Position numbers and translations under genes: made by a program. A DNA stretch of 64,000 bases from Gluconobacter kanchanaburiensis NBRC 103587 (GTDB lineage Bacteria; Pseudomonadota; Alphaproteobacteria; Acetobacterales; Acetobacteraceae), in assembly GCF_007988905.1 (NCBI RefSeq), contig NZ_BJVA01000004.1, forward strand, positions 124,001 through 188,000, written 5' to 3'. The notes beneath the pieces were generated by a model. That model saw only the letters and a program-made list of their open reading frames with translations. It did no database searches and had not been told where the DNA came from. The first letter of the stretch is position 1; each line of letters begins with the position of its first letter. Positions 432 through 8,202 of the stretch are shown in pieces.

Positions 432-1556
432 GTGCCAGAGCCTACGAATTCTTCCCTCAAGCCTTTGAAAACTGATCTTCGTCGCATCGATATCAATCCC
501 GATTTCTGGTATCCGCTGGCCTGGTCGAAAGATCTCAAGCGCGGAAAGACGGTCGGGCGGCGGTTCGGACGTCATCCGATTGCGTTGGTGCGTCCTGAGG
601 AAGGCACCGTCTTTGCGCTTGAAGACCGGTGTGCCCATCGTCAGGTTCCGCTTAGCCTGGGCAAGGTCAGCGGTGAGGCTGTCCAGTGTTGTTATCATGG
701 CTGGGCGTATGGGCGGTCAGGGCGATGCATTGATGTGCCGTATCTTGGCAAGGGTAAATTGCCCAACGGCGTGAGGACCTATCCCTGTCGTGAAGCCGGG
801 GGAATGATATTCATTTTCCCGGGTGATCCTGAAAAGGCGGAGAGCGTGCCGCTGCCGCCTTTGGCTCAGGTCGATAATCCGGCGTTCAAGACACGGCGTT
901 TCAACCCGGTCGTCAAATGCCACTACACGTTCATGCATGAGAACCTGATGGACATGAACCATCAGTTCCTGCACCGCCGCCAGATGGGGCAGATTCGGGC
1001 GCGTTTTTTGGGGCAGGACGCGGGTGAGAATTTTATAGAGGCGCGATACAGTTTCGCGCGGACCGGCAACGAGCAGCCTCTGGCCGAACGTCTGATTTTT
1101 GGCAAGCATCATGACGATCCGAACCGGGAGCAACCGGTCGAGGAAATCGTCAGCGTTCGCACGACCTATCCGTATCAGAGCCTGAAAATCCACGACAAGG
1201 ACGGCGACCTGATCATGGAGCTGTTCAGCGTCTATGTGCCCAACAGTGCTGACGGCATGAGCACGCAGACTTTCGGCCTGCTGTCTGTGCTACGACCGAA
1301 GACGCCGTTCCTCATTGACGTGATCTGGCCCGCGCTGGGGATTTTTACGCACCGGATTTTTGAAGAAGACCGGGAAATCATGGAACTGGAACAGAATGCC
1401 TGGCGTGAACTGGGGGGCGATCACAACGTGGAAGTGTTCCCGATCGTGCGCAAACTGCGCGACCTTCTCGCGCGCAACGGCGTCACGGCCGGAACGGATA
1501 CGGGGATTTCGGGGCAAGTCTCTCGGGAACAGGTGGTCGATCCTGCCGTTGTCTGA
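432..1556 (+). CDS. Rieske [2Fe-2S] aromatic ring-hydroxylating oxygenase, alpha-subunit type
   Basis: This 374-residue protein has the two-domain layout of Rieske non-heme iron oxygenases. The Rieske cluster ligands are Cys67-X-His69 and Cys86-XX-His89. The mononuclear iron site shows Asn171, Asp174, His177 and His181. It starts at GTG with GGAGAG ten bases upstream. The length suits vanillate demethylase-like single-component oxygenases, but the substrate cannot be read from sequence. No reductase or ferredoxin gene is adjacent, so electrons must come from elsewhere. The aldo/keto reductase 26 bases downstream is probably co-transcribed. Confidence 0.85.
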   Translation: MPEPTNSSLKPLKTDLRRIDINPDFWYPLAWSKDLKRGKTVGRRFGRHPIALVRPEEGTVFALEDRCAHRQVPLSLGKVSGEAVQCCYHGWAYGRSGRCIDVPYLGKGKLPNGVRTYPCREAGGMIFIFPGDPEKAESVPLPPLAQVDNPAFKTRRFNPVVKCHYTFMHENLMDMNHQFLHRRQMGQIRARFLGQDAGENFIEARYSFARTGNEQPLAERLIFGKHHDDPNREQPVEEIVSVRTTYPYQSLKIHDKDGDLIMELFSVYVPNSADGMSTQTFGLLSVLRPKTPFLIDVIWPALGIFTHRIFEEDREIMELEQNAWRELGGDHNVEVFPIVRKLRDLLARNGVTAGTDTGISGQVSREQVVDPAVV

Positions 1557-2519: not shown

Positions 2520-3797
2520 GTGTCTCTCTGCCTTGCCGCACTGAGCATTCCTGTCAGTCTGCAAAATGCGGAGGGTGGACGGTCGAGACGATCCGCCATC
2601 GCCAGTACGGTAATTCTTCTGGCGGGGCTCGTGGCGATTCTGACTCTCTCGCCCGCCGTTCTGGCGATTGCAATCGGAGTGCTCGCGACTCAGGATCGTG
2701 ATGCCTGTCCTGCGGTTTGGAGCGTTCCGACCCTGCTGCTGAGCGTGCTTTTTCCTGGTCAGACGCCTGTTCTTCTGGCGCTGATGCCGGTTTTGTTCTG
2801 GTCGGCGCTTGTGCGTCGCGGAGGGAAAGGCTCACCTGGTTTCATGAGCCTTCTTGGAGCCTCTCTGGTCTGGCATGCGCCGGGCGCTATTGCCTTGGAG
2901 CTTATTACCGGCCTTGAGATCGGTGTGCTGGTTCTCGTCGGATGGTCGATATTCGGAGCACGTCGTCCGGGCGATCTGGGGCTTCTCCGGCCTGTGCTTC
3001 TGATGGGACTGGTGACTGCTGCGCAGGCTGAAGGTCTGGCGGACTGTGCGCGGATTGCGCTGGAAGCCCTGTTTCTTGATCTTGCGCTGCGAGGGGTGTG
3101 TTCCGTTTTGGCAGACCGCTTCCCGGTTCTGTTGATGGCTTGTCTACCGCTTCCTCTTATGCCTGGACTGGCTGTTCTCTGGCTGGGGATACATGCGGCG
3201 CTGGGGCTGTCGGCGGGTGTTGAAGGGTGGAGTGTTCCCGGTGTGGCGGTTGCGCTTTTGCTGGCTGTGCTGGGTTTGTCGGATATTCTGGTTTTCGGGG
3301 AGATGTTTCGCACGCGACAGGGGCGTGTCACGGGCCCGTCGGTCCTGCTTCTCGGTGCGACTGGTCTGCTGTTTCCCGCGCTTGTTCTTGGAATCGTGAG
3401 TCCTGTCCTGCATGCGATAGGTGGGACATGGGTCTGGCCCGTCTGGTATCTGGGCGGGGGGGACGGGGCTCATTTACCTGTGATGGCGATCGTGCTTCTT
3501 GGTGCGGCGATCTGGATCGGGCTTGTGCGCCCCTGGCGGATTTCTGGTGGAATTATCCACCTTGCCTCAACCCTCGTTCCCGCGCTTGTGACTTTTCTTT
3601 CAATTGGAGACGGACTGTTCGGGGAACCTCCCGCACTGGGCTGGAAAATGCGTCGTGGCATCGTTGCAGGGCGGAGGCGCCTCGGGATGCTGAGGAAGAT
3701 GGAGGCTCCGGTTCTTCCTGATCTGCATCAGGGGGCGATTGGGCTGTGGCTTGTCCTGCTTGGTCTTGTCCTCGCGGTGCTGGGGGTGATGGCCTGA
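2520..3797 (+). CDS. HyfB-like membrane subunit of a reduced hydrogenase-4-related complex
   Basis: A 425-residue, very hydrophobic protein with about a dozen predicted membrane segments. Identity as a HyfB/NuoL-type antiporter-like subunit is inferred mostly from its first place in a hyfB-C-E-F-G-I gene order and from weak likeness around LPLMPGLAVLWL, where HyfB has a P-P-L-N-G-F segment. HyfB is normally about 670 residues, so this is far shorter. The K....P.H.WLP.AH signature of proton-pumping antiporter-like subunits is not visible. The start is uncertain: GTG at 2520 is the first standard codon after an in-frame stop at 2460, but no ribosome site precedes it. It overlaps the next gene by one base. 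Confidence 0.6.
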   Translation: MSLCLAALSIPVSLQNAEGGRSRRSAIASTVILLAGLVAILTLSPAVLAIAIGVLATQDRDACPAVWSVPTLLLSVLFPGQTPVLLALMPVLFWSALVRRGGKGSPGFMSLLGASLVWHAPGAIALELITGLEIGVLVLVGWSIFGARRPGDLGLLRPVLLMGLVTAAQAEGLADCARIALEALFLDLALRGVCSVLADRFPVLLMACLPLPLMPGLAVLWLGIHAALGLSAGVEGWSVPGVAVALLLAVLGLSDILVFGEMFRTRQGRVTGPSVLLLGATGLLFPALVLGIVSPVLHAIGGTWVWPVWYLGGGDGAHLPVMAIVLLGAAIWIGLVRPWRISGGIIHLASTLVPALVTFLSIGDGLFGEPPALGWKMRRGIVAGRRRLGMLRKMEAPVLPDLHQGAIGLWLVLLGLVLAVLGVMA

Positions 3798-4663
3798 TGC
3801 ATGAAATCGGGATGCTCCTTCTGACTGTGCTGGAGCTGCTTTTCCAGCTCGTGTTGCTTCTGGTGTTGGCGCCCCTGATGGGATGGTGTCTTGACGAGCT
3901 GCCGCTCTGGCTGGGCGGGCGCGGCGTCAGCCCGCTGCGCTTCCGGCTGCTGAGAAGTGCCCGTTTCTGGGGGGGGCTGCTCAAGGTTCCTCTGGCCGGG
4001 CCTGTAGCGCTGGCACTGACCACCGCTATTCTGACACTCTCCTGTCTGCCCGCGATTACGACCGGCTCGGCTCTGTCCGGGCTGGCCGATCCGCTCATGA
4101 TGGGGCTGCTGGTTCTGCTGGGCCGTGGGTTTCTGGCGCGGTTCCTTCTGCAGGGCGAGCGGGGACGTCTTGGAGCAGCGTTTCTGCTGCTGTGCCTGAC
4201 TGAGGCGCTGATCGCGCTTGCCGCTCCGGGGACGGATGGTCTCGCGGGTCTGTGTGCGATGCTGCATATCGAGCCTGAACCTGGCCTTGAAGGGGCGCTG
4301 GCGGCCTGTGCGCTGGCGCTCGGAATCGCCTGCCCGCCGCTGCGTGGGGAAGATGTAACCCGAATGCTTTGTAGCGTCCGTGACCAACAGGAACGTGAAG
4401 CAACGCGCAGTGTCGCAGACATACTGAACTGTGGCTGGCTGCTTCTGTTGGCGGATCTGTCCCTTCCCGTGAGCGTCGGGCTGGCGCAGGGCGGCGTGGC
4501 AGGCTGGTGGCTGGGGCTTATGGCGCTGGCTGTTCGGCTGGTGCTGACAGTCATGGTTGTAATTGGACTGCGGCTGATGGCGCAGGAATGCAGCGCGCGT
4601 CTGACAGCTCTGTTCGCGGGCGTGGCGCTTCTGCTCGCGCTGGCGGGGAGATTTGGGACATGA
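3797..4663 (+). CDS. HyfC/NuoH-like membrane subunit of the reduced Hyf-type complex
   Basis: A 288-residue integral membrane protein, starting at ATG 3797 on the last base of the previous gene's stop (TGATG). The N-terminal pattern L-APL-GW then R-G-SPL-FR-L resembles the HyfC start, where a first helix is followed by a basic R-G-P segment. The acidic and charged loops that NuoH uses at the quinone cavity are hard to find, so it appears degenerate. HyfC is about 315 residues, so length is nearly normal. The assignment depends on gene order and should be tested by profile comparison. Confidence 0.6.
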   Translation: MHEIGMLLLTVLELLFQLVLLLVLAPLMGWCLDELPLWLGGRGVSPLRFRLLRSARFWGGLLKVPLAGPVALALTTAILTLSCLPAITTGSALSGLADPLMMGLLVLLGRGFLARFLLQGERGRLGAAFLLLCLTEALIALAAPGTDGLAGLCAMLHIEPEPGLEGALAACALALGIACPPLRGEDVTRMLCSVRDQQEREATRSVADILNCGWLLLLADLSLPVSVGLAQGGVAGWWLGLMALAVRLVLTVMVVIGLRLMAQECSARLTALFAGVALLLALAGRFGT

Positions 4664-5181
4664 TCGTCGGCTTCGGACTGCTTCTGCTGCTGGCACTTGC
4701 GGGGCTGGGCAAGGACGGCCGTGGTCTGCCTCTTTATGGGGCTGCCTGCGCCTTCGCAGGGGCGACGGTATGCTCAGGGCTTCTGGCGTTTCTCACGTCC
4801 TTTGCGCTGATTGGTCTGAATGGTCTTGCCTGGGCGTGGCTTCGGCGTTTTGCTGCCGAGGCGCCAGACCGTGCAGCGGTTCTGCCGGTCGTCGGGACGC
4901 TCGCGCTGCTGTTGGCGCTTGGGCTGTCAGGAGCGGGTCTCGGTCTTGCGCCTGTGCTTGGTGCGGGTGTGGTGCTGGCGGGGCTGTGTGGCGCCGCCGG
5001 GGGACCGCCGCTTGTCCAGTTTGCCGGACTGCTGCGGGCTGCGGACGGGCTGATCGTGGTTTCCTGTGTTCTTCAGTCCTGGCCGCTTTCTCTGGCGGCG
5101 TTGAGTCTGTGGGGTGTGCTTGCCGCACTCGGGGTCACGCTTCTGCCGCGTCTTGCGTGGCGCCGGGTGGAGGAGGTCTGA
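4660..5181 (+). CDS. HyfE-like small membrane subunit of the reduced Hyf-type complex
   Basis: A 173-residue hydrophobic protein with about five or six membrane segments, beginning at ATG 4660 inside an ATGA overlap with the HyfC-like gene. HyfE (about 215 residues) combines NuoK-like helices with extra segments, and this protein is in the right position and of similar character. A longer reading frame exists upstream from 4507, but the ATGA coupling supports 4660. The Glu residues that NuoK uses for proton transfer are not obvious in the membrane segments. The call is mainly positional. Confidence 0.6.
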   Translation: MIVGFGLLLLLALAGLGKDGRGLPLYGAACAFAGATVCSGLLAFLTSFALIGLNGLAWAWLRRFAAEAPDRAAVLPVVGTLALLLALGLSGAGLGLAPVLGAGVVLAGLCGAAGGPPLVQFAGLLRAADGLIVVSCVLQSWPLSLAALSLWGVLAALGVTLLPRLAWRRVEEV

Positions 5182-6284
5182 TGCACCCGCTCGCTCCCGT
5201 AGGAACGTTGTTCGCTGTCACCGTCTGGCCTCTTCTAGCGGCCTTTTTGCTGGCTTTGACCCCTGAAAACCGTCAGGCTTCCAGTAGTCTGACGTTTGCT
5301 GTTGCTGGACTTGTGGTGACGCCTCTCGCTGTATGGCTGATGCCGGGAACGGATGCGCTGGCGGCGGCCTGCTCCTGCATCGTGACGGCCATTCCGCTGC
5401 TTCTGCCCCCGGCGCAGGATCGGACAGGGCGTATTCTGCCGTTCCTCGTGACGGGATGCGCGCTGCTTGCGTTCAATGTTCATTCCGCGTTTGCGGTGAC
5501 GGTTCTGTGTGGCGCGGGTGCCGTTCTGCTGGCCTGGCGGGAAGGACGCGGAGCGCGCAAGGCTGCGATCGTCTGGGATATGGCGAGAAGCCGGCTGGGG
5601 GGTGTCGTGCTGGGGCTTCTGGGAGCATCGCTTCTGCCGATGCACCAGTCATCGCTGGGTGCGGTGCTCCTGACGGTCGGGCTGTGCATGGTGGCGGGAC
5701 TGGGGCCGTCGCCCGCATCCGCGCCGGAAGCCGCGATTCTTGATACCGGACTGCGTTTTTCGGCGTTGATGCTGATGTTGCGCCTGAGTGACTATCCGCT
5801 GGTGCATCTGCTGATGCTGATCGCCGGTTTTGGCACGCTTCTCATGCTTGTGTCGTCACGATCGTCGGGTCGGGCGTTTTCCCTGCCCATGCTGTCCGCG
5901 CTTGGCATTCTTGCAGCCGCGACGGGTGAGGGGCCCGCACTTGTCCTGCTGCTGCTCGCGGCTCTCGGGCTTGCCGCCATCGGGCTTGCCCATCAGGATC
6001 CCGGCGGAGCCGATGAGGAAAACGGAATTGCGGCAGGGAGCGCGCCCTGGCCGGTATTCTGTGCGCTTGTGGGGATTGGGCGGTCGCTTGGATCGGGGAA
6101 TCTTGCCCTGCTGGTCGTTTGTCTGCTGCCCGCTTTGTGGTCTGTGCGGCACATGACGCTTCTTCCAGCATCGGGACGGGAAGGGGGGCATCTCGTGCTT
6201 GTCATCCAGGCGGTTCTGCTTCTCGGGGGCTTGTGTGGTCCATTGTTTCTGGCGTGGCATCCCGTCACGGGGTGGACGCCATGA
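5181..6284 (+). CDS. HyfF-like membrane subunit of the reduced Hyf-type complex
   Basis: A 367-residue polytopic membrane protein placed where HyfF (about 525 residues) should be. The region from about residue 145 to 205 can be laid against the HyfF segment GTK-GLAPMH-WLPDAHSEAP, but reads CMVAGLGPSPASAPEAA. The essential lysine and the His-Trp-Leu-Pro signature therefore appear to be lost or deleted. ATG at 5181 overlaps the previous stop by one base and GGAGG precedes it. The frame is open throughout, so this is a reduced protein rather than a broken gene. Confidence 0.6.
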   Translation: MHPLAPVGTLFAVTVWPLLAAFLLALTPENRQASSSLTFAVAGLVVTPLAVWLMPGTDALAAACSCIVTAIPLLLPPAQDRTGRILPFLVTGCALLAFNVHSAFAVTVLCGAGAVLLAWREGRGARKAAIVWDMARSRLGGVVLGLLGASLLPMHQSSLGAVLLTVGLCMVAGLGPSPASAPEAAILDTGLRFSALMLMLRLSDYPLVHLLMLIAGFGTLLMLVSSRSSGRAFSLPMLSALGILAAATGEGPALVLLLLAALGLAAIGLAHQDPGGADEENGIAAGSAPWPVFCALVGIGRSLGSGNLALLVVCLLPALWSVRHMTLLPASGREGGHLVLVIQAVLLLGGLCGPLFLAWHPVTGWTP

Positions 6285-7720
6285 CGGGCATGGGTCGCCT
6301 GATTCGCGGTGGCGAGCGTCTTGCGCTGTCGCATTATCGTCTTGAGGCGGCGCAGTGGGCGGAGATGCTGTCTGCGCCGGGTCCGACACTTCCGCTGGTT
6401 TCCTGCTGGGTTGATGAACGCAGCGCGTCTGTTCTGGTTCTGGAAGGGGACCGCCCGCTGCTGGCGAGTACGCCTGTGGAAGACAGGCGCTACCTCGCTC
6501 CGTCCTCGCGGTTTCCGGGAGCGGAATGGGGAGAACGCGTGGGGTATGATCTTTATGGCGTGGAAGCGATGGAGGCCCGTGGCAACGGGGCGCCGGCGCT
6601 GGATGAAGGGGGCTGGACGTCCACATGGCCCCTGTCGGGCCAGCCCGCTCCTGCGGCAGGGGGATTGCGGCCTCTGGCAGGCAGTCACCTGCTTCGGCCC
6701 GAGCAGACGGGGCTGAGCGGGCCGCTGGAATTCTCTTTTGAAGTCCACAGGGGCGCGATCAGGACAGTTGAAATCTGTGCGGGAGGCGCGCATCGCGGCG
6801 TGGTGTCACGGCTTCTGGGGAAAACGCCCGAGGAGGCCATGCCGCTGGTCTCGCGGATGACGGCGGGCGGGTTTGTCGCCCATCCACTGGCTTTCGCCCG
6901 CGCTGTCGCACAGGCGCGTGGCCTGCTTCCGGGACCGGGCATCCGGGATGTCTGGATGATCCTGCTGGAAATCGAGAGAATGTCGATCCACCTGCTTGAT
7001 ATGGCGCGGACGGCGCGTGGCGTGGATGCGCAGCTTCTCGCGACGCATTGCGATCATGCGCGCGAAGCGATCGCACGCGCTTGTTCGGAGCAGGGCGTCT
7101 CCCGCCGGTTGATGGATATGGTGACATGTGACGGATTTTGTGACGGGCTGGAGATTGTGCCTCTCGCGCAGGCTGTCCATGCCACGATGCAGCCGCGGCT
7201 TGCGGCTCTGGAAGAACTTCAACGGGTCTTCGCCCCGCGTCTGAAAGGGTTTGCCGTTCTGGACACAAGGCTTGCCGCGCGTTTTGCGGTGGGGGGAGTG
7301 ACGGGGCGTGCGAGCGGACGTGGCACGGACATGCGACGTCGGGAGGCGGGAATGCGGCTTGAGGCGTTGCGCACGACCGGGTCCAGCCAGGGCGATGCCC
7401 GGGCACGGGATGGTCTGAGGCTTTCGGAAATCCGGGACTCCCTGCGGCTTCTGGAGCGCATTCTGGGAAGTATCGGGCTGGATGATGACGAGCCTGCGCC
7501 GGATCGTACCGGGGAAGGTATCGGTGTGGTCGAAGGCGCTCGCGGTGATGTCTGGTACTGGGTACGGCTGAAGGACGGGCGGATCGAAAACCTGCATGTG
7601 CGGGATCCGGGCGTGTCGCTGATCCCGGTTCTCGAATCGATGCTGCGAGGATATCCGGTGAGCCGGGTTCCTGCGGCTCTGGGGTCGATCGGCCTCTCTC
7701 CTTCGGGGATCGCGCAATGA
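6281..7720 (+). CDS. HyfG/NuoCD-like large subunit lacking NiFe-binding cysteines
   Basis: A 479-residue homologue of the fused NuoC-NuoD/HyfG large subunit. Residues about 1-110 match the NuoC-like domain, and from about 145 the NuoD-like domain (GGAHRGVVSRLLGKTPEEA, then LLEIERMSIHLLD) is clear. In hydrogenases the N-terminal CGxC motif follows this point; here residues 192-201 read RMTAGGFVAH with no cysteine. The C-terminal LCxSC pair is replaced by LSPSG at 472-476, three residues before the end. A NiFe site is therefore not possible in the known form. It starts in an ATGA overlap and overlaps the HyfI-like gene by four bases. Confidence 0.85.
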   Translation: MTGMGRLIRGGERLALSHYRLEAAQWAEMLSAPGPTLPLVSCWVDERSASVLVLEGDRPLLASTPVEDRRYLAPSSRFPGAEWGERVGYDLYGVEAMEARGNGAPALDEGGWTSTWPLSGQPAPAAGGLRPLAGSHLLRPEQTGLSGPLEFSFEVHRGAIRTVEICAGGAHRGVVSRLLGKTPEEAMPLVSRMTAGGFVAHPLAFARAVAQARGLLPGPGIRDVWMILLEIERMSIHLLDMARTARGVDAQLLATHCDHAREAIARACSEQGVSRRLMDMVTCDGFCDGLEIVPLAQAVHATMQPRLAALEELQRVFAPRLKGFAVLDTRLAARFAVGGVTGRASGRGTDMRRREAGMRLEALRTTGSSQGDARARDGLRLSEIRDSLRLLERILGSIGLDDDEPAPDRTGEGIGVVEGARGDVWYWVRLKDGRIENLHVRDPGVSLIPVLESMLRGYPVSRVPAALGSIGLSPSGIAQ

Positions 7721-8202
7721 AGGGGCTGAGACGGGCTGCTCCCCTAAGTGTGGTGTATGCCTTCATGGATGCGGTGCGTTGGCGACCGCATGCGGAAAGT
7801 GCAACGCCCCGCCGGGATCGGCCGATTGGGCTGTATGTGCTGGAAGCGGGGGGCTGCGAAGGCTGCTTCATGGAAATCGAGTCTCTCGCTGGTAGCGCGT
7901 TTGCGTTGGAGCAGGCCGGTTTCGTTTGCGTGAGCGACCCGGAAGACGCGGACTGGCTGTTGCTGACAGGTGCGGTGACGCGGGTTTGCGCTGAAATGGT
8001 GGACCGTGTCTGGCGAGCGATGCCTCCAGGACGAAGTCTGATTGCCGTGGGGGCCTGTGCGGTTGATGGCGGTCCGTTTCCTGCCGGTTATGCAACTCTG
8101 GGAGGCCTGCAGGCGCTGACGCCTGTGCGACGGTCCATTCCGGGCTGTCCGCCCTCGCCGCAGGATATTCTTGATGCCTTACAGGAGCTGGCGCGGCTCT
8201 GA
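7717..8202 (+). CDS. HyfI/NuoB-like [4Fe-4S] small subunit
   Basis: A 161-residue NuoB/HyfI family protein that carries the N2-type tetranuclear cluster next to the large subunit. All four ligand positions are present: Cys47 and Cys50 in GGCEGC, Cys114 in VGACA and Cys144 in PGCPPSP. Length is normal for the family. It is the last gene of the operon and the best conserved, so electron transfer through this subunit is probably still used although the partner's NiFe site is lost. No terminator with a U-run is seen after it. Confidence 0.9.
   Translation: MKGLRRAAPLSVVYAFMDAVRWRPHAESATPRRDRPIGLYVLEAGGCEGCFMEIESLAGSAFALEQAGFVCVSDPEDADWLLLTGAVTRVCAEMVDRVWRAMPPGRSLIAVGACAVDGGPFPAGYATLGGLQALTPVRRSIPGCPPSPQDILDALQELARL

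Follow-up and report, generated by a model that had tools for sequence, protein, structure and literature searches.

The window, by which we mean the whole 64,000-nucleotide stretch of Gluconobacter kanchanaburiensis DNA that was analyzed, encodes a six-gene operon whose product is best explained as a pump-stripped paralogue of the energy-converting hydrogenase-related (Ehr) complexes. We denote this paralogue Ehr-S and suggest, with a probability of roughly 0.6, that it is a non-pumping, membrane-anchored electron-transfer or sensing module. The sequence shows that Ehr-S has lost the NiFe site, that its two antiporter-like subunits are without their lysine motifs, and that the NuoH/HycD-like subunit is without its acidic stretch; retained are the four ligands of a [4Fe-4S] cluster and six open genes that are under purifying selection in Gluconobacter.

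Six open reading frames (ORFs) were identified at window positions 2520-8202 in the order hyfB-C-E-F-G-I, with neighboring frames overlapping by 1 or 4 bases. This agrees with the initial annotation, which had described an intact six-gene operon. The subunits, and the places in the large subunit where a hydrogenase would carry its NiFe motifs, are:

2520..3797, + strand: hyfB/ehrA-like antiporter-like subunit (B), 425 aa, GTG start as listed
3797..4663, + strand: hyfC/NuoH/HycD-like subunit (C), 288 aa
4660..5181, + strand: hyfE-like subunit (E), 173 aa
5181..6284, + strand: hyfF-like antiporter-like subunit (F), 367 aa
6281..7720, + strand: hyfG/NuoD-like large subunit (G), 479 aa, without NiFe cysteines
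6854..6883, + strand: place of the first NiFe CxxC, large-subunit residues 192-201, RMTAGGFVAH
7694..7708, + strand: place of the second NiFe CxxC, large-subunit residues 472-476, LSPSG
7717..8202, + strand: hyfI/NuoB-like small subunit (I), 161 aa, N2-type [4Fe-4S] cysteines C47, C50, C114, and C144

No gene for an electron donor or acceptor is present within the operon. The genome is 2.92 Mb in size; its nearest named relatives, G. potus and G. oxydans, have large subunits with 87% identity to that of the window, and the hyfB-like subunit is 405-422 aa long in the Gluconobacter relatives that were scored whole. A Rieske/VanA-type oxygenase gene is located at window positions 432-1556, upstream of an aldo/keto reductase gene; two other loci (L032 and L056) carry two other genes in its place, which we take to be aminopeptidase-like and holC-like. 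The window cluster presumably also resembles a mycobacterial hyc-like cluster, on which nothing was found among the literature search results.

The large subunit matched the Pfam family Complex1_49kDa (E 5.6e-14), and its best sequence match in the PDB was subunit 5 of the E. coli FHL (E 3.5e-9). Alignment to MbhL placed RMCGIC of MbhL opposite RMTAGG of the window protein, and none of its six cysteines (residues 42, 166, 257, 268, 283, and 287) falls at either NiFe motif. As a positive control, two true group-4 hydrogenases brought in by a class-wide search showed CGIC and CISC. The claim that both NiFe cysteine pairs are missing from the large subunit is thus borne out, with no cysteine pair found at the aligned positions. 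Hyp maturation genes had likewise been annotated as missing, and this holds as regards HypD, the hyp gene searched, which had no match in the organism's own genome; the control detected HypD in 4 of 14 genomes, including E. coli. On both counts, the two CxxC pairs and HypD, the complex falls outside the group-4 [NiFe] hydrogenases.

Comparison with full-length relatives, among which L064 has a large subunit 33% identical to that of the window, revealed 40 alignment columns common to the window's clade, other stripped rows, and full-length rows. Many residues that are fixed in full-length large subunits are not kept in the window type; these include residues of the loop GPVHAGIIEPGHF, which is not kept in the window's clade and is located where complex I has a quinone-site loop. 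At residue 268 (window positions 7082-7084), at least 95% of the members of the window's clade have a cysteine, whereas alanine is the most frequent residue in full-length forms.

The small subunit matched Oxidored_q6 (E 4.4e-24) and, in the PDB, the FHL (E 2.3e-21) and chloroplast NdhK (E 1e-22). It retains all four N2 cluster cysteines, as had been proposed. Of 94 small subunits scored in the fetched Acetobacteraceae operon loci, 91 retain the four-Cys motif; in 12 more of these loci no small subunit was found. One exception, L137, is a fragment at a contig edge. The others come from G100 and G157, two genomes of one genus, whose loci (L054 and L102) are stripped Ehr with six open genes and one of the four cluster cysteines left; dN/dS between them, from this one pair only, was 0.12-0.40.

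Loss of hyfI was considered for seven 16-kb loci and for L068, which is cut by a contig end, and was rejected because a whole-genome search found hyfI elsewhere in all eight genomes. All four cysteines were present in eight of nine complete unlinked copies read (G022, G192, G149, G085, G037, G008, G046, and G199); the unlinked small subunit of G001 has lost one cysteine, and that of G126 has an in-frame stop. The condition of G100, G157, and G001 indicates that the cluster is dispensable in some lineages. At L092-L095, L097, and L098 (G022, G192, G149, G085, G008, and G046), hyfI heads a group of nrtR-nadA-nadB-nadC-like genes and overlaps the first of them by 4 bases, a placement that may tie its expression to NAD synthesis. 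These names derive from Pfam matches on L094 alone (NrtR winged-helix domain, NadA, and an FAD-binding domain), with nadB and nadC named by resemblance; the window's own genome had no match to NadA.

None of the four membrane subunits matched a Pfam or NCBIfam family above its cut-off, and the identities of hyfB, C, E, and F were therefore not assignable from the window alone but required relatives. When the window was compared with an initial set of 40 loci, membrane subunit lengths graded from full-length (about 667/319/220/480 aa for B/C/E/F) to the window type (425/288/173/367 aa), with intermediates, consistent with the claim that these subunits are shorter than in known Ehr. Profile comparisons connected the window's clade to the intermediates (P 1.7e-9 for B, 2e-19 for C, 5e-10 for E, and 1.3e-20 for F) and the intermediates to full-length forms (P 6e-31, 5e-31, 1e-6, and 9e-12, respectively), with all 36 non-cognate comparisons at P > 0.02 (lowest 0.021). 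The profiles of the window's clade were also compared directly with full-length forms in two tests. Subunit C matched with P 6e-10 in one and 2e-12 in the other; the corresponding values were 0.027 and 1.2e-4 (B), 0.067 and 0.012 (E), and 0.17 and 0.029 (F). The direct match is thus weak for E and F in both tests and for B in one of the two, and homology in these cases rests on the intermediates and on gene order; the direct values for E and F do not improve on the non-cognate controls.

An iterated profile search from full-length forms reached the window subunit C at the second iteration (E 7.6e-8). From full-length forms alone, the search did not reach B or F of the window's clade and reached E in L039 only, a gap that was resolved with group profiles. 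A predicted structure of subunit C, built from window-clade sequences only, had a pLDDT of 89, and its top Foldseek match was HycD of the E. coli FHL (7z0s_D; E 8.6e-6, TM 0.67). The AlphaFold model of subunit B (pLDDT 79) had complex-I antiporter subunits among its top matches, none of them significant (best E 0.43), and Pfam Proton_antipo_M was matched by 8 of 22 B proteins drawn from all groups. The stepwise profile comparisons with their non-cognate controls and the HycD fold of C indicate that Mrp/NuoL-like, NuoH-like, and HyfE-like membrane subunits are present by descent.

Full-length forms carry the motifs GSKAGLxPLHxWLPxAH in subunit B, GYGTKxGLxPLHxWLPDAH in subunit F, and ARIPVDNPxTHLELTMVHEAM in subunit C. 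The window and its clade are without all three. The motif K..x.P.H.WLP is absent from both antiporter-like subunits of the window, upholding the statement that neither shows the signature K....P.H.WLP.AH, and subunit C of the window is without the acidic stretch ARIPVDNPATHLELTMVHEAM.

A search of 200 Acetobacteraceae genomes gave 175 with a match to the large subunit at E <= 1e-5; in eight of the 175 the E value was above 1e-10, and these may represent complex I. Loci were defined as the stretches fetched around selected matches, with at most two per genome, and only fetched loci were counted. Once near misses had been inspected by eye, the motif pattern was relaxed, and under it 143 rows, some scored on one or two subunits only, comprised 71 full, 66 stripped, 2 partial, and 4 that were not scorable. 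Two of the 66 stripped rows (L181 and L185) are true hydrogenases mislabelled by the motif pattern; they carry K..QPPFQSW and both CxxC motifs and were rejected as stripped Ehr. A partly stripped class was likewise abandoned since nearly all of its members were pattern misses, and the remaining two (L137 and L143) have a short B reading frame.

A fetched locus was available for 102 Acetobacteraceae genomes: 52 had only the full form, 40 only the stripped form, 4 both, and 2 a partial form, and 4 were not scorable. The full form was therefore detected in 56 genomes, with the motifs present wherever scorable, and the stripped form in 44, including Gluconobacter. The window is stripped, and so is each of the 20 named loci, of which 19 are from Gluconobacter and one is from Neokomagataea; we infer that the window's wider clade is made up of acetic-acid bacteria. 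A search of 289 genomes of the class, at least 4 of them Acetobacteraceae, yielded 23 genomes outside the family with a large subunit at E < 1e-120, and Ehr loci from alphaproteobacterial families other than this one, 15 of which were fetched, were without exception full wherever scorable. In some stripped rows, eroded motifs in which leucine replaces lysine can still be recognized: subunit F of L148 reads GYGTL, and subunit B of L066 reads GAGSL. Both forms were found in genomes G099, G127, G147, and G151, with the label of the stripped locus in G151 (L148, cut by a contig end) based on subunit F alone.

A phylogenetic reconstruction of 85 large-subunit rows placed 45 stripped and 40 full rows on either side of one branch (SH-aLRT 96.7). 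A larger tree of 126 rows, which leaves out near-copies, L050, L060, L181, and L185, required two changes of the stripped label under the relaxed pattern; the 85-row set was reduced further by removing additional near-copies, all rows that were partial or unscorable, and a large share of the full-length ones. Several independent pump losses had been considered and were rejected when the six changes in the first tree, scored with the strict pattern, fell to two and then to one with the relaxed pattern and the reduced set. A single origin of the stripped forms is favored, although not proven, as the branches are long and attraction between them is possible. This topology suggests that the stripped forms are an old pump-less paralogue, and the four genomes with both forms fit an old duplication in the Acetobacteraceae.

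All six genes are open in each of the 19 other Gluconobacter loci wherever scorable (L076 and L079 start after or inside gene B). Estimates of dN/dS (Nei-Gojobori) for Gluconobacter pairs with 0.05 < dS < 1, with L091 omitted throughout and L079 omitted for gene B, gave medians of 0.186 for B, 0.130 for C, 0.063 for E, 0.100 for F, 0.088 for G, and 0.138 for I, so that the hyfE-like gene has the lowest median of the six. The highest value for a single pair was 0.392, with no pair reaching 0.4, and the neighboring aldo/keto reductase and ROK kinase genes, for comparison, had medians of 0.089 and 0.031. The low values in all genes show that the operon is kept, with subunit B the least constrained. 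The inference of selection that the initial annotation drew from intact frames is therefore supported, as is its view, given the missing NiFe cysteines and HypD, that this is a selected complex other than a hydrogenase.

Respiratory complex I belongs to the same superfamily, as the match of the window small subunit to chloroplast NdhK illustrates. The window operon differs in that it contains no NADH module and does not keep the quinone-loop residues, and its small subunit carries a CxxC at the place of the CC of complex I. The sole 49-kDa relative found in the window's own genome was the large subunit of the operon, at 37.5 bits, which together with the missing NADH module places the operon outside complex I. 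When 44 genomes were checked for the 49-kDa family, 8 (G000, G054, G131, G180, G136, G101, G070, and G170) had only a low-scoring Ehr-type match, indicating that they lack the 49-kDa subunit of complex I; each of these genomes is stripped, and together they fall within one 19-row clade. G066 had no match to the 49-kDa family at all. Passages of one report describe complex I as absent in G. oxydans (PMC3751514).

The E. coli FHL/hydrogenase-4 (7z0s) resembles the window complex in the HyfC-like fold and in the large- and small-subunit sequence matches given above. Unlike the window complex, it has NiFe cysteines and full-length antiporter subunits. The closest likeness is to Ehr, known from Geobacter (GSU0739-45), Margulisbacteria, and Nitrospira and portrayed in passages of the relevant papers as lacking NiFe ligands and as suspected of redox-coupled charge translocation, with function unproven (PMC7894505, PMC6349859, PMC10284858). 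Those passages describe a large subunit free of NiFe motifs together with small, NuoL-like, and HyfE-like subunits, all as in the window, but also Mrp antiporter-like subunits, whereas the membrane subunits of the window are shorter and without the lysine and acidic motifs. Full-length Ehr of other Acetobacteraceae and of alphaproteobacteria (for example L059, L064, and L166) share the six subunits, the lost NiFe site, and the N2 cysteines with the window operon but differ in the length of their membrane subunits and their three motifs.

The initial annotation had stated that known Ehr also lack the NiFe cysteines, which is correct for the published systems and for the full-length relatives. 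Loss of the NiFe site is therefore not specific to the window operon. By its NiFe-free large subunit, N2-type small subunit, and membrane subunits the complex belongs with Ehr, and its sequence indicates descent from a six-subunit Ehr, a known kind; it departs from Ehr in its missing ion-translocation motifs. The loss of these motifs is the peculiarity of the lineage and seems to mark an Acetobacteraceae paralogue. What is new here is the comparison showing full and stripped forms among Acetobacteraceae. At the level of search results, the literature yielded no account of this operon in acetic-acid bacteria; in the portions of text available, PMC8602642 yielded no hydrogenase passage, PMC12041372 no passage, and PMC10149009 one NADH passage.

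As we envisage Ehr-S, its six subunits would still assemble and be anchored in the membrane. Single electrons would move through its one N2-type cluster, passing between a partner protein and a remodelled cavity between the large and HyfC-like subunits. No protons would be moved; the complex would either conduct electrons without coupling or sense redox state as a module. An unlikely, if far from negligible, alternative is that redox work has been lost entirely and that the subunits persist for binding rather than catalysis, the complex being a sensor, a platform for assembly, or a scaffold in the membrane. The joint absence of the NiFe site and the pump motifs fits this alternative, as do the loss of three of four cluster cysteines in G100 and G157, with six genes open and dN/dS of 0.12-0.40 in that one pair, and the loss of one in G001. 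However, the constancy of the four cysteines, both in operon loci and in eight unlinked copies, is what a cluster in use would show. It is improbable that the complex still moves ions via residues other than the canonical lysines and glutamates: all hydrophobic subunits are retained, the HyfE-like one is strongly conserved, and some charged HyfC-like residues are still conserved in the window's clade, but three subunits are without the lysine motifs or the acidic stretch and without long segments of sequence.

Rapid change in subunit B, which is 64% identical to its G. oxydans counterpart when the neighboring ROK kinase is 97% identical, could point to a dying operon without present function, and the operon is indeed broken in one genome, G126 (L105 and L099), where the large subunit is split over two frames in three pieces. 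Neighboring genes of G126 (one encoding a 481-aa protein and the aldo/keto reductase gene) are broken as well, suggesting that the whole genome is decaying or the assembly is poor. Together with the open frames in the other Gluconobacter loci, dN/dS far below 1 in all six genes, and retention across many genera, this makes decay very improbable. Least credible is that the complex is a hydrogenase-4 or formate hydrogenlyase that is bound to the membrane and has an unusual active site; gene order speaks for this, as does the fact that the large and the HyfC-like subunit both find their best PDB match in an FHL chain, but with the NiFe cysteines and HypD missing it is, by sequence, as good as refuted.

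A broader reading, to which we give less than even odds and which we put forward tentatively, is that Ehr-S represents a distinct class of the complex I superfamily, widespread in Acetobacteraceae, one that retained all six subunits as its body and dropped H2 catalysis, then pumping, and in some lineages the Fe-S cluster. It would now be a membrane module that does not pump and perhaps does no redox work, and in the Gluconobacter clade no other complex I-like assembly would be left. Relatives of complex I have been studied as coupled machines; here the coupling parts seem to have been removed stepwise while the rest stayed under selection. Surviving intermediates, such as the lysine-to-leucine forms in F of L148 and B of L066, would amount to a natural dissection of the parts that the superfamily needs, one found in bacteria that can be cultured and manipulated genetically and that belong to a clade without complex I.
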